From a candidate division WOR-3 bacterium (GTDB taxonomy: Bacteria > SDB-A): 64,000 nucleotides of DNA. The notes under the pieces were generated by a model. The model ran no database searches. It saw only the letters and a program-made list of their open reading frames with translations, and was not told the origin of the DNA. Position numbers and translations under genes: made by a program. The stretch covers positions 55,364 through 119,363 of the forward strand of contig JAFGSQ010000024.1 of assembly GCA_016934535.1 (NCBI GenBank), given 5' to 3'. Positions 38,126-45,883 of this stretch are shown piece after piece. Within the stretch, counting starts at the first letter, position 1. Each line of letters begins with the position of its first letter.

Positions 38126-38848
38126 TCAGTCGAAGACAATGAATCCGCAGGTGCTGAATTCTGGTACGAGCTGGTATCCCTCAGTAAGTTTGATCCCAAT
38201 TTTTTCTGCCTCAAGCAGTTTTAATATCTTGTACTGCTGCAACAAATCAGGACAACCCCTGTATCCTAACCCGTAACGCCTGCTTTTGGGGACTCTGCAC
38301 TCACTCTCAACTCTTCTGCTGACGTACTTAGCACAAGCCTCCGTCAACTCACAGGCAAAACCGTTTAGTAGAAAATACTCAAGATACATGTCGTCGTTCA
38401 AAAGATTTTTAAGTTCACCCGAGAACGAATCTCCCGCTGTAACTGCGAACAGGCACCCGTTATCTTTCCCGAATTTATTTCTGAAAAAAAAACCGATTTC
38501 CGGGTCTTTTTGAGATTTTTTCGTTGGAAATACCAGTTCTTCTCTTTTTTCTCCGTTTACATCTATTAAATCGACCTTGTTCCCTCTTTTTCCAAACTTG
38601 AAATAAGCAAAGGAGCATCGCATGTCAGCGAGGTTTTTATCAGAGACGGTTCTGACAATTTTCTCGAAGCTTTTTTCCGCATCGAAACCGAATCTTTCTC
38701 TTGTCCCTGCGTTTTTAAGATCCCACCTGACGTTGAAAAGTGCGTCCTTATCGAGGTGCTTGAGAATTTCACCCAAATGTAAGCTTTTTATTATTGTCAG
38801 TCGATCTGCAAACTGTTCTTGCGATTCAGCTCTTTTCGAACCGCCCAC
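38126..38848 (-). CDS. Stand-alone MetH reactivation (S-adenosylmethionine-binding) domain
   Basis: 240 residues equal to the C-terminal activation domain of MetH. The SAM-binding signature is recognisable as RRYGLGYRGCPDLLQQ and the C-terminal STCGFIVF. This domain brings SAM and reduced flavodoxin to restore inactive cob(II)alamin. In E. coli it is fused to MetH; a separate gene is known in Thermotoga. Its ATG overlaps the metH 3' end by 23 bases in another frame. No sign of a disabling mutation in either gene, so this is a natural split. Confidence 0.85.
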   Translation of the reverse strand: MGGSKRAESQEQFADRLTIIKSLHLGEILKHLDKDALFNVRWDLKNAGTRERFGFDAEKSFEKIVRTVSDKNLADMRCSFAYFKFGKRGNKVDLIDVNGEKREELVFPTKKSQKDPEIGFFFRNKFGKDNGCLFAVTAGDSFSGELKNLLNDDMYLEYFLLNGFACELTEACAKYVSRRVESECRVPKSRRYGLGYRGCPDLLQQYKILKLLEAEKIGIKLTEGYQLVPEFSTCGFIVFD

Positions 38849-41360
38849 GTCTTTCCTCCATAATCTTCATAGCCGCAAAAGCATCCCTGGCATAAAAGAC
38901 CTCACTTTGAACGGCTTCTTTCACTTCTTTGACGTAACTTTCGCTAAGTGCTGCTCCTCCGCAGATGACAGCTACCCCCGGAGATGAATTTTTTAGTTCT
39001 TCGATCACTTTTTTCATGTACTGTGCAGAACTGATCAAGAGACCGCTCAAACCAACGAAATCCGGCTTCATCCCTTTTACTGATGCCGCTATCTCTTCGG
39101 CAGATTTGTCGACCCCAATATCTACGACTTCTATCCCGCTGTTCTCCAAAATTACTCTTACTATGTTTTTGCCTATGTCGTGAATGTCACCTTTAACGGT
39201 TGCGAGGATTATTTTTATTTTTTCTCCGTTGTTTTGCGCGCATTTTAAATGAGGTCTGAGCTTTTCTAACGCCTTGTGCATCGTCTGAGAAGAGCACAAG
39301 ACGAAAGGTAGATGGGTTTCTCCCCTTTCAAACCTATCACCGACGCTTTTCATCGCAGGAAGAAGGATATTCACGAGTATATCTTCGGCCCCAACTTTTT
39401 TAAGCAAATGGGATAAAACATCTTCTAATCCCTCTTCTCTCCCTCCAATTATATGAAACGTCAATTTATCTTCGTCGCTTTCAAAATCATTTTCAGTCGC
39501 TTTTGTGAAATGTTTTTTTTCATTTTTCCGCTCACCGAGGAACTCGGCCAATACATCACCCGGATCCTTCGTGCCGGAAAATATAAGCTCTTCAGCGCTA
39601 ATCCTCGCTTTTTCCGGTATTTCATGTATCGGTCTGACTGAGGTGGTGTCTATTATTGCCGCATCGAGACCCGCCTTCAAAGCGTGATACAAATATACGG
39701 AGTTCAGCGCCGTCCGATGATTTTTGTCAAATCCGTGGGACACATTGCTGATGCCGAGAATAGACTTGGTCCCGGGAAACATTTCCTTTAATAATTTCAG
39801 GGATTTTATGGCGGATTCTGCGCTTTTTCGCGTGAGGCAATCCGCCGAAGCGAGAGAAAAGGTTAAAGGATCGAAGAAAATATCCTGAACCTTTATTCCG
39901 TGTTCGACAACGGCGAAGTCGAAAATTTTTCGGGCAATCTCGATTTTTTGTTTTAAATCAATGGCGTAACCTTTTTCATCGGCAAGAATACAGACCACAG
40001 CCGCACCGAATTCTCTGACTGTCTTCAGGATTCCTGAAGCTTTTTCCATGTTTTCAAGGCTGACTGAATTTACAAGCGTTTTTCCCGGATACGCCTTGAG
40101 GAATTCATTTACGGATTTTTCATCTGTAGTGTCCGCGCAGACAGGAACCTCCAATATTTTTCCCATCGATTTTCCGATTTCGGCGAAATCTCTGCTCTCG
40201 TTCCTTCCTGTAACAGCAAGGCTCAGATCCAAACAATGCACGCCATTTTTTTGCTCGGCGAGAGCTAGGTCCAACACTTTCTTGATATCACCTCCGACAA
40301 CAGCTTTTTTGAACTCCCTGCTTCCGGAAGCATTGGTTTTTTCAGAGATGATCAGCGGTTTCGGGAACATATCAGTCGACACGGACGAGTACAATGAGGC
40401 GAGTGAAGGTACGAATATTTTTTTGTTTTCACAGAAAGTCAGGCTCTCCGTCCTAATCACCAGTTGGCGTATATGTTCAAAAGAAACTCCGCAGCAGCCG
40501 CCCATCATCCTGAATCCGTGTTTCTTCGCCTGATTCACTACTGTTTCGGCGAACTCTTCCGGACCGCAGTCGTAAGTAATGCTGTTTCTAACAACTCTCG
40601 GCATGCCGGCATTTGGCAGATACAGGAAATCGAAAGGTGAACTTTTCAGGAAATCTCCTATGGGGGCGTCAAATTGTTTCGGTCCGAATCCGCAATTCAG
40701 TCCGGCTGCGAGAAAGTCATAGGACTGAAACGTCCCGAGGAATGATTTGCACGACATACCCGCAACTGTCCTTCCTTTCTCTCCTATTGTTATAAGAACC
40801 GAAACGGGAATTTTTACCTGCCTCTGTTCAGCCACTTTGGCGGCGGCAGCAAGAGCGGCTTTTACCTGAATCGGATCCTGGCACGTCTCTATCTGAAGCA
40901 TGTCCACCCCTCCCTCGGCAAGCCCCTGTATCTGCATTTCGAAAGATTTGAATAATTCGTCAAAAGTGATCTGACCCAGAACCGGAAATCTTCTTCCTGG
41001 ACCTATGGAGCCTGAGACGTATCTTTTCTTTTTCCCTTTAGAATGTTTTTTTGCAGCCTTTTTTGCTATCCTTGCACCTTCAGCGTTGATCCTGCGGCAG
41101 AAGTCTTCCGCCCCCTCATCGTCAAGCGTCAGAAAATCCCCTCCAAAAGTGTTGGTTTCTATAACATCGCATCCTGCCTCGAGGAATCCCTCATGTATAC
41201 CCGTTACCATATCGGGATTGTTCAGATTGAGCATTTCGTATATTTCTCCGTCTTTTTTCGCAATACCGCGTTCGCTGGCGACAGACGCCAGTGAAGTGCC
41301 CATTCCGCCGTCAAAAATAACGGCGTTTCTTTTTATAAAATCATCAAAATGTATCGCCAT
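38826..41360 (-). CDS. metH: Cobalamin-dependent methionine synthase, core (homocysteine, pterin and B12 domains)
   Basis: 844 residues without the reactivation domain. Homocysteine-binding domain (about 1-310) with zinc ligands C223 (GLNCG), C289 and C290 (GGCCG). Pterin-binding domain about 330-610. B12-cap and Rossmann domain about 640-835 with the D-x-H-x-x-G motif (D725, H727, G730; H727 is the lower axial ligand) and CGGAALS. It methylates homocysteine with 5-methyl-THF in the cytoplasm. metF lies 15 bases upstream. The reactivation domain is the next gene. Confidence 0.95.
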   Translation of the reverse strand: MAIHFDDFIKRNAVIFDGGMGTSLASVASERGIAKKDGEIYEMLNLNNPDMVTGIHEGFLEAGCDVIETNTFGGDFLTLDDEGAEDFCRRINAEGARIAKKAAKKHSKGKKKRYVSGSIGPGRRFPVLGQITFDELFKSFEMQIQGLAEGGVDMLQIETCQDPIQVKAALAAAAKVAEQRQVKIPVSVLITIGEKGRTVAGMSCKSFLGTFQSYDFLAAGLNCGFGPKQFDAPIGDFLKSSPFDFLYLPNAGMPRVVRNSITYDCGPEEFAETVVNQAKKHGFRMMGGCCGVSFEHIRQLVIRTESLTFCENKKIFVPSLASLYSSVSTDMFPKPLIISEKTNASGSREFKKAVVGGDIKKVLDLALAEQKNGVHCLDLSLAVTGRNESRDFAEIGKSMGKILEVPVCADTTDEKSVNEFLKAYPGKTLVNSVSLENMEKASGILKTVREFGAAVVCILADEKGYAIDLKQKIEIARKIFDFAVVEHGIKVQDIFFDPLTFSLASADCLTRKSAESAIKSLKLLKEMFPGTKSILGISNVSHGFDKNHRTALNSVYLYHALKAGLDAAIIDTTSVRPIHEIPEKARISAEELIFSGTKDPGDVLAEFLGERKNEKKHFTKATENDFESDEDKLTFHIIGGREEGLEDVLSHLLKKVGAEDILVNILLPAMKSVGDRFERGETHLPFVLCSSQTMHKALEKLRPHLKCAQNNGEKIKIILATVKGDIHDIGKNIVRVILENSGIEVVDIGVDKSAEEIAASVKGMKPDFVGLSGLLISSAQYMKKVIEELKNSSPGVAVICGGAALSESYVKEVKEAVQSEVFYARDAFAAMKIMEERRGRFEKS

Positions 41361-43101: not shown

Positions 43102-44306
43102 ATTTCCTCCAAAAAAAACTTGTCCGTCCGTTTCGTATTTTTTCTTGTTTCGTCTCCGACAAAACTTTCAGGCCTGAGTGATTTCAATTTTCCGCCTTCC
43201 GGAAGGGGAGCAGAATATCCGGTTACTTCGAATTCTCCTGTAAGTATTCTGTCTTTCAAAACGCAAGCGATGTTTCTCGATTTGTGTATGCCGGATATGA
43301 GAAAAGTTCGCACTGTTCTGCCGAAGAGTTCAACTTTTCCTGAGGCGAGTTCGGAATAAGTGAAAAAGCAAAGTCTTTCTTTGTCCTTTGTCGAAAAATC
43401 CGCGATAGGCACTTCGATGTCTCTGTTTCTCACCGATGCGTAAAAAGCACTATCTTCGTCTGTTATCGGGACAGGCACTCCTATACCGACAAAAAGGCTC
43501 ACTCCATAATTCCTGAAATAAGCAGGGCCGATGAATTCCGTGTCCATTTTTTTCAAGTCGCCGATGACTGATATTGACGCAGCGTTTTTCAGCGGTATTC
43601 CACGGGAATTCCTCTCGGTGACTGTCTCGTGCTGAGTTCCGTTCCAGCAGATAAATCCCTGAGCGCCGCATAGAAATATTTTTGTACCTATACCTATATT
43701 TTTGAGATAAGGGTCGTTTATAAGAGGGCTAAGTTCCCCCGTCGTGCAAAAATTAATATTGCCGGCTTTTTTCCGAAGAGTGCCCATGTATGTGTGTATG
43801 TCTTTTTCTGAAAGATTGAGCGCTGCAGGATAGTTTTGATAGGCGTTTCTCGGATTGAAAAGAAATGCTTCGTTTATTTCATATTTGGAAACTTGCGTCG
43901 CAAGTTCTTTTTTCGGATAACAATCCGTCCCCTTCGCTTTCGCTTCTAGTAAAATCTTTTCACCCTTGACTAGAGAAAAGATCACGTTTGCCCCTCCGTA
44001 TTTAGGATCTTCCTCAGATGTTTGTGCGGCTCCTATGTAAGCGTCTGCGGCGGCTATTCCTCCGTGCGCTCTGACTTTGTTCAAAAATATCTCTTCCATT
44101 CTTATCGGCGGAGAACAGTTCCCGAAATTCAAAAAAGCTCCGCTGGAACACATTGGAGAAAAAGTGGCTGTCGTGACAACGTCAACTTTCTCCGCGAGCT
44201 CCTTAGGTGATTTTTCGCATGCCATTTTTTTGAATTCTTCGGCTGTAAGCACTACCCCTTTTCTGTTTTTTATTTTTTCACGGATTTCTTCCAATGATTT
44301 GTTCAT
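43089..44306 (-). CDS. Homocysteine synthase, DUF39/COG1900 family (from aspartate semialdehyde)
   Basis: 405 residues of the DUF39 family. In archaea and some anaerobic bacteria this enzyme turns aspartate semialdehyde plus a sulfur donor into homocysteine, replacing acyl-homoserine sulfhydrylation. Two cysteines fit the conserved family positions, C53 (FSPMCSSGAF) and C129 (KGTDCYP); published work ties such Cys to persulfide chemistry. The start has AGAGGT 7 bases upstream. The NIL/ferredoxin partner often found next to it is not in this operon. Confidence 0.88.
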   Translation of the reverse strand: MNKSLEEIREKIKNRKGVVLTAEEFKKMACEKSPKELAEKVDVVTTATFSPMCSSGAFLNFGNCSPPIRMEEIFLNKVRAHGGIAAADAYIGAAQTSEEDPKYGGANVIFSLVKGEKILLEAKAKGTDCYPKKELATQVSKYEINEAFLFNPRNAYQNYPAALNLSEKDIHTYMGTLRKKAGNINFCTTGELSPLINDPYLKNIGIGTKIFLCGAQGFICWNGTQHETVTERNSRGIPLKNAASISVIGDLKKMDTEFIGPAYFRNYGVSLFVGIGVPVPITDEDSAFYASVRNRDIEVPIADFSTKDKERLCFFTYSELASGKVELFGRTVRTFLISGIHKSRNIACVLKDRILTGEFEVTGYSAPLPEGGKLKSLRPESFVGDETRKNTKRTDKFFLEEICLP

Positions 44307-44368
44307 TGTTTACCTCTTTACGCGCGCGAAAACGCGCAGAAATAAATTTTGTGTGTAACTTTGTTTTG

Positions 44369-44401
44369 AAAAAAAAGACTTACACGCGCATTCGCATGTA
44401 A
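44369..44401 (-). terminator. Intrinsic terminator overlapping the end of the 42-codon ORF
   Basis: In the minus-strand transcript UUACAUGCG pairs with CGCGUGUAA over nine positions (one U-G wobble) around AAUG, 44401-44380, followed after three bases by eight Us (44376-44369). This is a classical terminator directly upstream of the DUF39 gene. The 3' arm contains the stop codon of the small ORF, and two Met codons lie in the 5' arm and loop. Confidence 0.75.
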
Positions 44402-44508
44402 TGGGAGGGCATAATGCTTTTGGATGACTGCGTGCTGAAATCCGGCGATTCGACAGCACCGCAGAAGATCACGCCGGCCTCGCTTGTCTGGGCGAAGATA
44501 TTTTTCAT
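44380..44508 (-). CDS. 42-residue ORF, candidate leader peptide of the methionine operon
   Basis: An ATG with an ideal AAGGAGG five bases upstream opens a 42-codon frame ending in TAA. The peptide is not similar to anything I recognise. It has Met at positions 1, 33, 38 and 40, so three of its last ten codons are Met; the last two sit inside the terminator hairpin. With the promoter upstream and the methionine operon 74 bases downstream this fits an attenuation leader, but a small functional protein is also possible. Confidence 0.55.
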   Translation of the reverse strand: MKNIFAQTSEAGVIFCGAVESPDFSTQSSKSIMPSHYMRMRV

Positions 44509-44534
44509 CCTGACCTCCTTATTAAGATTTCGGA

Positions 44535-44562
44535 ATGATAAGACTTTTTTAAAAAAAAGCAA
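44535..44562 (-). promoter_or_regulatory. Putative promoter of the methionine-operon leader
   Basis: On the minus strand TTGCTT (44562-44557), 16-base A/T spacer, TATCAT (44540-44535). It predicts a transcript start near 44528, just ahead of the ribosome-binding site of the 42-codon ORF. It overlaps the hairpin proposed as terminator of the tldD-pmbA pair. Confidence 0.4.
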
Positions 44563-44581
44563 GCCGTTTTTTAAAGCATGC
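44551..44581 (-). terminator. Weak terminator candidate after pmbA
   Basis: GCATGC and GCTTGC (one internal mismatch) flank an 11-base loop, followed by eight Us on the minus strand, 15 bases after the pmbA stop. The stem is short, so confidence is low. Confidence 0.35.
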
Positions 44582-44596
44582 TACTTCAAAAAAAAA

Positions 44597-45883
44597 TCAC
44601 GAAAAAGAGACGTCTTTTATCAGCACGTAAGGGGATCTCGCATTTCCGTAATCTGTCGTCTCTTTTGAGACCGCATCTATGTTCAATAGCATTTCAGCGG
44701 TGTTCGCCGTCATCATGATTTCTTTTACCGGACATTTTATTCTGCCGTTTTCTATGTAATAACTGTTTTTACACACGCCGGATATCTCTCCGCCGACGCT
44801 GGGAGAGCCGCCTGAAAATCTATCGAGAAATATTCCTTTTTTAACGTTTTGAATCATAGACTGTAAATCTTGATCCCCGGGAAGTATTTCGGTGTGATTG
44901 CCGCTCAGATTTTTGGATCTTGGAAGTCCCGTCTTCCTCGATCCGTAGTAAGAAATAAAATAACTCTTTAAAATACCATCTTTAATTACGTCCATATCTT
45001 CAGTCAAAAATCCGTCAAAAGTAAAATAATCCCTGAAAACAGACTTGTCTGAGAGGGGCGAGATTTTAATATTCAGGAGAGGCGAAGCTATTTTTTCCCC
45101 GAGTTTGTCGCTGTAAATACTCGTTCCGGTTATTAGTCTGTTTTCGTGCAGGGGATACAATAAATCATCCGACATTTCGAGCATTGCTTTGGGAGTGACT
45201 ATGAGATCTCCTTTGAATTTTTCATTCAAAGCTATGCTTTCGATGTGTTCCACCGAGTTTTTAAGCAATGAATCCAGTCCGCATTTGTCAACAATATGTC
45301 CATTGATCTGATCTAAATCGAGTGAAAAATAATTGAAAGAAGAAATATTTTTGTCTCTTTTTGCAGTAAAGAAAAGCCATACATTGTAAAACGAACGATC
45401 TTGGGTGAAATAACATCCGTTGGTGTTTGCGTATGCTATTTCGCTTTTTTTGTGAGAAAAAAAACTGTCTGAAAAAATCACTTCGGGATATCTTGACTTT
45501 GCTTCGTCTAAAAACTCCTGGAAGGCGTCATTCATTTTTTCTATGTCGGGTTCGCTCGAATTTCCCATAAATCTTCTTACTGAATTTTCGGGACTGATGT
45601 CGTTTGCTTCATCAGGAACTGCAGACATACACATATCAAGAAGAAGTTCTGCGGTATTCTTTATGTCTTCATTTGAAAAGTTATTAAGCGTAATATCGGC
45701 TTTTCTGTTATCGCAATATGCTTCTATCTGAATTTCGTTATTCTGAGTTGACCTGAAAAAATTTATTTTATCCTTCTCGACGTTCAATTCGGCTATTTCT
45801 CTTTTGAAACTTAACAACGCGCTTTTTTGAGCGCCTTTCTTGACGACCTCATTTAATATTTCTCTCGACTTTTTCTCATCCAT
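44597..45883 (-). CDS. pmbA: TldE/PmbA-family protein
   Basis: 428 residues of the U62 (TldD/TldE) family. It is the non-catalytic subunit (TldE/PmbA), lacking the HExxxH metal motif of its partner; typical blocks are ESIALNEKFKGDLIVTP, the ...NLSGNHTEILPGDQDLQ strand and VGGEISGVCKNSYYIENG. TldD-TldE heterodimers proteolyse unstructured peptides and mature some RiPPs in the cytoplasm. It lies one base after tldD. Confidence 0.9.
   Translation of the reverse strand: MDEKKSREILNEVVKKGAQKSALLSFKREIAELNVEKDKINFFRSTQNNEIQIEAYCDNRKADITLNNFSNEDIKNTAELLLDMCMSAVPDEANDISPENSVRRFMGNSSEPDIEKMNDAFQEFLDEAKSRYPEVIFSDSFFSHKKSEIAYANTNGCYFTQDRSFYNVWLFFTAKRDKNISSFNYFSLDLDQINGHIVDKCGLDSLLKNSVEHIESIALNEKFKGDLIVTPKAMLEMSDDLLYPLHENRLITGTSIYSDKLGEKIASPLLNIKISPLSDKSVFRDYFTFDGFLTEDMDVIKDGILKSYFISYYGSRKTGLPRSKNLSGNHTEILPGDQDLQSMIQNVKKGIFLDRFSGGSPSVGGEISGVCKNSYYIENGRIKCPVKEIMMTANTAEMLLNIDAVSKETTDYGNARSPYVLIKDVSFS

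Follow-up and report, generated by a model that had tools for sequence, protein, structure and literature searches.

How is the homocysteine and methionine operon of this candidate division WOR-3 bacterium controlled? Methionine genes are usually controlled by S-box, T-box or repressor (MetJ) systems, and a sequence-only reading of the window (the whole 64,000-nucleotide stretch of DNA that was analysed) had proposed an attenuator-like leader with no S-box-like structure ahead of the operon. The operon lies on the minus strand, with the following predicted genes in order of transcription.

44306-43089, minus strand: DUF39/HcyBio homocysteine biosynthesis protein (PF01837, E 1.6e-130), the first gene after the leader
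43101-42337, minus strand: ApbE-related protein, probably UPF0280/COG2122, as judged by its position, its length and a weak ApbE match below the Pfam cut-off
42340-41375, minus strand: methylenetetrahydrofolate reductase (MTHFR) of the MetF type (PF02219)
41360-38826, minus strand: MetH methionine synthase without the activation domain (PF02574, PF00809, PF02607, PF02310)
38848-38126, minus strand: separate MetH activation-domain protein (PF02965)

DUF39 and COG2122 proteins are needed for homocysteine synthesis in Desulfovibrio (PMC5764234). Given that role and the presence of DUF39, UPF0280-like, MTHFR and MetH genes, the regulated product is therefore predicted to be methionine. By its gene content, the operon is a DUF39-type homocysteine/methionine pathway, and the codons enriched in the putative leader match the product of the operon. 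The methionine synthase (38126-41360) is split, as MetH stops after its B12 domain and a separate, overlapping gene encodes the activation domain; the same arrangement was seen in the two relatives carrying the operon (G002 and G003, described below). The assembly of the window also has two metK copies (G000:C23:21998-22411 and G000:C57:22004-22417), at nearly equal contig offsets and beside similar neighbours. The assembly is rated 3.9% contaminated, and the pair would represent either a duplication or contamination.

Searches for riboswitches returned no candidate for the control of this operon. No S-box (RF00162) was found in the window at gathering score, among the weak matches in the leader or in the four genomes sampled from the phylum, in agreement with the earlier claim that no S-box-like structure is present. 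Likewise, neither a T-box nor any other Rfam family gave a gathering-score match, and the region 44280-44620 yielded only chance-level matches at a relaxed E-value. Between tldE, which ends at 44597, and the DUF39 gene, the following elements were located.

44582-44551, minus strand: probable intrinsic terminator of tldE, AGCATGC..GGCTTGCT followed by T8, with a weak fold, separating tldE from the leader
44562-44535, minus strand: promoter-like TTGCTT-N16-TATCAT, with TTGCTT at 44562-44557 and TATCAT at 44540-44535
44520-44514, minus strand: Shine-Dalgarno (SD) sequence AAGGAGG of the leader ORF, recognised by sequence and kept in G002 and G003
44508-44380, minus strand: leader ORF of 42 codons, MKNIFAQTSEAGVIFCGAVESPDFSTQSSKSIMPSHYMRMRV followed by the stop, between tldE and the DUF39/HcyBio gene
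44412-44410, minus strand: Met codon 33, 8 nt 5' of the terminator stem
44397-44395, minus strand: Met codon 38, within the 5' arm of the terminator stem
44391-44389, minus strand: Met codon 40, in the terminator loop
44401-44369, minus strand: predicted intrinsic terminator with a 9-bp stem TTACATGCG/CGCGTGTAA, loop AATG, then GTC and T8, including the leader stop codon
44346-44309, minus strand: second hairpin, over the DUF39 SD region, with a GCGCG-UUUU-CGCGC core; a GC hairpin occupies the same place in G002 (two sequences only)

The sequence-only reading had described a 42-codon ORF with an AAGGAGG and three Met codons among its last ten, a 9-bp hairpin plus U8 holding the last two Met codons and the stop, and a promoter-like site upstream. 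This anatomy holds base by base, with every element on the minus strand where it had been placed; the ORF is confirmed by the sequence, the hairpin by the sequence, the fold and a terminator scan, and the promoter-like site is present as described, though weak by consensus. The Met codons are numbers 33, 38 and 40 of 42, i.e., 3 of the 10 final codons. The stem is formed by 44401-44393 paired with 44388-44380, followed by GUC and by the U8 at 44376-44369. The hairpin consists of the last six codons of the leader ORF and its stop, such that the 3' arm of the stem ends in the 3 nt of the stop codon, and the last two Met codons fall in the 5' arm and the loop. The folding energy is -11.1 kcal/mol (z = -3.8, with 0 shuffles equally good). 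In a scan of the minus strand from tldE to DUF39, this hairpin, which lies 74 nt before the DUF39 gene, was the sole terminator-like match. The promoter-like site has 8 of 12 consensus matches and was not flagged by the promoter scan, in which promoter-like matches in the leader region were at chance level. The segment TATCATTCCGAA (44540-44529) is identical in the congener G002, with differing flanks. As a correction to the sequence-only reading, the -35 box of the leader overlaps the 3' arm and T-run of the probable tldE terminator; G002 carries a shorter CAAG..CTTG hairpin with T5 at the same place, with a similar overlap with the -35 box.

We then compared the leader across the phylum sample of four genomes, comprising that of the window (G000), two of the same genus (G001 and G002) and one of the same family (G003). 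The leader, as a translatable short ORF with a ribosome-binding site upstream of the operon, is present in 2 of the 2 available relatives having the operon (G002 and G003), so that both the ORF and the Met codons, on whose conservation in relatives the earlier proposal had been staked, are kept. In G002, the DUF39 protein is 72% identical to that of the window and the leader reads MIDIFNAEACGLSCTGISELTPGVLASERIMPSHYMRMRV followed by the stop. The two leaders share their last 11 residues, IMPSHYMRMRV followed by the stop, with synonymous ATT/ATC and TCC/TCT changes; the change of the stop from TAA to TAG in G002 keeps the closing pair as U-G, and the stem is otherwise identical and followed by U7. 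The N-terminal part is barely alignable between the two. G003 (deposited as Desulfuromonas sp. SDB, LKUE01000318) has the five genes of the operon in the same order as in the window, whereas the genes upstream of its leader are unrelated to those of the window and include no tldD/E. Its leader, MFRTSLKLGSTGLKAGSSSLENTLFSSFSSKSLINIILFNMHMCAMPMGMWN followed by the stop, is unrelated in sequence to that of the window, and 5 of its final 12 codons are Met. An intrinsic terminator between the control codons and the first gene is found in the window and G002 and is not clear in G003, where the Met-rich tail is without a clear U-tract terminator. No such leader was found in G001, a congener without DUF39, metH and metK. 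This genome is rated complete, yet has no match to DUF39, a MetH-type S-methyltransferase or metK, and G001 is probably a scavenger of methionine and SAM.

Conceivably, a random short ORF ahead of a terminator could mimic such a layout by chance, short ORFs being common and the phylum offering three leaders. SD-preceded ORFs of 12-60 codons in the real window were compared with those in 40 dinucleotide-shuffled windows: at least 3 Met in the last 12 codons occurred in 1 of the 11 in the real window, namely the leader ORF, and in 0 of about 530 in the shuffled windows. The last 12 codons hold 3, 3 and 5 Met in the window, G002 and G003, respectively, against 0 non-start Met in the 95 earlier codons, so the cluster of end-product codons near the ORF end is conserved and above chance (p = 4e-4, 8e-4 and <2e-5, composition shuffle). 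With all 3 of 3 loci positive and no out-of-frame ATG in the three tails, the chance explanation is largely refuted and extremely improbable.

Two further explanations accept the ORF as real and assign it another role. According to the first, it is a gene for a small protein or processed peptide (e.g., a substrate of the TldD/TldE protease) with an ordinary terminator over its stop, and the operon has its own promoter. The direct upstream position of tldD/tldE in the window and G002 would suit this, as would the result that the leader peptides have no Pfam or NCBIfam match and hence no assigned function; however, the Met-tailed leader of G003 stands before DUF39 although tldD/E are not upstream there, the N-terminal part of the peptide shows no conservation, the leader occurs together with the methionine operon, and the promoter scan between the leader and DUF39 gave no promoter-like site. 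We therefore consider a small-protein gene very doubtful. According to the second, the conserved C-terminal stretch acts as a nascent-chain arrest peptide that senses, e.g., SAM in the exit tunnel, such that Met would matter as residues and not as codons. The identity of the last 11 residues between the window and G002 despite synonymous changes is what such a peptide would show, but much of this identity falls within the stem and is thus also accounted for by constraint on the RNA; moreover, the G003 tail (MHMCAMPMGMWN) is unrelated and the Bacteroidales tails described below are variable, Met enrichment being the only common feature. An arrest peptide is thus highly improbable. The conserved anatomy together with the Met tails in relatives strongly supports a putative Met-sensing leader peptide before the methionine operon. 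As the Met codons are kept before the operon in both relatives that have it, the leader is very probably a methionine sensor, and we hold with high confidence that the sensing would occur in cis through the Met codons.

How the sensing would be converted into control is best considered from the position of the Met codons relative to the hairpin. We consider it likely, in outline, that a Met-tRNA-sensing leader controls transcription into the homocysteine/methionine operon. The clustered leader Met codons would gauge the supply of Met-tRNA and control transcription into the DUF39-UPF0280-like-MTHFR-MetH-activation domain operon. When methionine is scarce, the ribosome would be delayed at Met33, Met38 or Met40, at most 8 nt from or on the 9-bp hairpin, and the delayed ribosome would block folding of the hairpin, letting RNA polymerase read through. 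When methionine is ample, the ribosome would proceed to the UAA that closes the stem and leave there, and the hairpin could fold with the polymerase at the U-run. The antiterminator would then be the ribosome itself, by pyrBI-like occlusion, with no alternative hairpin of the kind used in trp.

The geometry is consistent with this proposal, since the leader ORF extends into the terminator, as in pyrBI, so that a ribosome would block it. According to ribosome footprint geometry, A-site positions at codons 35-43, including Met38 and Met40, abolish the hairpin, and a ribosome at Met33, where the first starvation stall is expected, leaves about 8 of the 9 bp by footprint alone. Intrinsic termination in E. 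coli is suppressed by a ribosome positioned shortly before the terminator; terminators within ∼18-27 nt of a stop codon are repressed to an extent that depends on the sequence, and a terminator 5 nt past a stop codon lost most of its activity (PMC4824070). Therefore, a stall at Met33, 8 nt 5' of the stem, may also block the hairpin. We also built a toy stochastic kinetic model with E. coli rates of 50 nt/s, 15 codons/s and 1 s at the stop (rates from PMC1183508). Read-through rose with Met limitation from about 0.3 to 0.9 only if the polymerase pauses for seconds and the Met33 stall blocks folding; the response was flat without a polymerase pause, or falling if Met33 was also not blocking. It is plausible that a starved ribosome would stall in the hairpin and prevent termination. 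Methionine starvation also lowers initiator fMet-tRNA, and translation of the leader could drop altogether. The direction and timing of the switch are inferred, and we lean slightly towards ribosome occlusion working in the de-repressing direction.

No competing antiterminator hairpin common to the leader folds of the window and G002 was found in this comparison of two sequences. Alternative hairpins pairing the terminator 3' arm GUGUAA with a downstream UUACAC, the terminator 5' arm with the hairpin before DUF39, or GCACGC of the ORF with the terminator 3' arm are all available in the window and are not kept in G002. G002 shows strong pairing of the leader SD with codons 34-35 (CCCUCY), but the window fold up to the U-run does not. 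A related explanation retains the Met codons as methionine sensors and makes the control mainly translational or Rho-dependent, with the U-run terminator secondary or absent: stalling would alter folding at the hairpin over the DUF39 SD region, or expose the RNA to Rho. The GC hairpin over that region in both the window and G002 is compatible with such control, whereas no conserved pairing of the leader tail with this second hairpin was found between the two. Similarly, the Met-rich tail of G003 without a clear intrinsic terminator, and a T-run after the stop in just 14 of 32 Bacteroidales Met-tailed leaders (see below), speak for it, but the window and G002 conserve a textbook hairpin with a U-run. 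On balance, mainly translational or Rho-dependent control appears unlikely.

The pyrBI attenuator of E. coli senses UTP via polymerase speed, whereas the candidate signal at the window locus is Met-tRNA read via codons. The two are alike in that the leader ORF (pyrL in E. coli) enters the terminator, where the ribosome blocks the pyrBI hairpin (PMC4824070, PMC5021804). The window leader shares with trp/his-type attenuators a leader ORF bearing control codons for the product of the operon and an intrinsic terminator, but differs from them in having no conserved antiterminator hairpin and in placing the control codons within the terminator. In the literature found, Met leader peptides had been proposed earlier in two isolated cases, Campylobacter and Streptomyces. 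The MetL leader before metBA of Campylobacter jejuni, of 20 codons with 3 Met, was proposed from dRNA-seq (PMC3847290). Like the window leader, it is a small ORF that has three Met codons and precedes methionine biosynthesis genes, and its RNA is described as ending just after the leader stop; unlike the window leader, it has only 20 codons, precedes metBA and has been reported from C. jejuni, C. coli and C. doylei alone. In Streptomyces lividans, a metL leader was proposed before metNIQ (PMC8079986). It is likewise a short ORF ending in clustered Met (..CMCRRMCAF, then the stop) before methionine genes, but its transcript is leaderless, its operon encodes a transporter and no typical intrinsic terminator was reported. 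A systematic actinobacterial screen found no methionine leader peptide (PMC1262725), and the parts consulted of a broad terminator screen make no mention of a Met leader (PMC2965389).

Across 80 DUF39 loci from GTDB genomes, several Bacteroidota also had a Met-packed short ORF upstream of DUF39, and each of these ORFs was directly behind an RF00162 SAM-I aptamer. A short ORF beginning 8-18 nt past the aptamer was present at 32 of the 46 Bacteroidales SAM-I loci. The last 12 codons of these 32 ORFs contain in-frame ATG at 71 of 384 positions (6.5 expected, with a maximum of 17 in 2000 shuffles), whereas the two remaining frames hold 3 and 2. The tails include ..AMSMRMRCMR, ..IMPLMPMCMR, ..CMPMCMH and ..FFMDMRGMRM, each followed by the stop, and the genes downstream, identified by eye from N-terminal sequence, include DUF39, metH, O-acetylhomoserine-sulfhydrylase-like (metY-like) and aspartokinase-like genes. 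Loci showing a Met-packed ORF include L112, L117, L119, L120, L122, L124, L125, L128, L133, L138, L140, L147, L148 and L152, among others. In the Odoribacteraceae/Butyricimonas type (L117, L119, L120, L122, L125 and L152), the final codons are near-invariant at the DNA level, ATGCGCTGCATGCGC, and are followed by the stop and a T-rich run, which suggests a small terminator built from Met/Arg/Cys codons. A T-rich stretch (6 of 8) follows the leader stop in 14 of the 32 cases, compared with 6% of background positions, the background being largely coding sequence and therefore biased low. At S-box loci of Bacillota and other non-Bacteroidales DUF39 genomes, 0 of 10 short ORFs had a Met-rich tail, so the Met tail is not a general by-product of the S-box. 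Like the window leader, the Bacteroidales leaders carry Met-packed tails before methionine genes, some with an ATGCGC-rich hairpin and a T-run at the stop; unlike it, they stand behind an S-box, which the phylum of the window is without.

In the DUF39 tree, the family of the window did not group with Bacteroidota, and the leader label changed at least 6 times, a count that could be inflated by missed leaders; the leader state has thus been gained or lost repeatedly. Common descent of the window leader and the Bacteroidales leaders is unsupported by this tree. The DUF39 gene of Neomarinimicrobiota (L032 5200-5600), nearest to the window family in the tree, abuts an upstream coding gene, leaving no room for a leader.

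The open-access literature searched yielded no account of Met-tailed ORFs downstream of SAM-I riboswitches in Bacteroidales. The nearest precedent for a dual signal, which works differently, is the Xanthomonas SAM-I riboswitch, which responds to uncharged initiator tRNA as well (PMC7270179). Ahead of the homocysteine/methionine operon of this uncultured phylum, selection appears to act on the Met codons themselves. A far larger set of Met leaders appears to follow the SAM-I riboswitches of Bacteroidales, an order that includes many gut bacteria, and this pattern merits separate study. We consider it fairly probable that Met-codon leaders are a widespread, recurrently evolved control layer outside the S-box, T-box and MetJ systems, which would act alone in the phylum of the window and within the SAM-I expression platform in Bacteroidales, one leader there reading SAM through the aptamer and Met-tRNA through the codons. 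Should this hold, a single leader RNA would respond to both signals of the pathway, SAM and charged tRNA-Met; such dual reading is testable in cultured Bacteroidales and would help explain how SAM-I riboswitches act in these bacteria.
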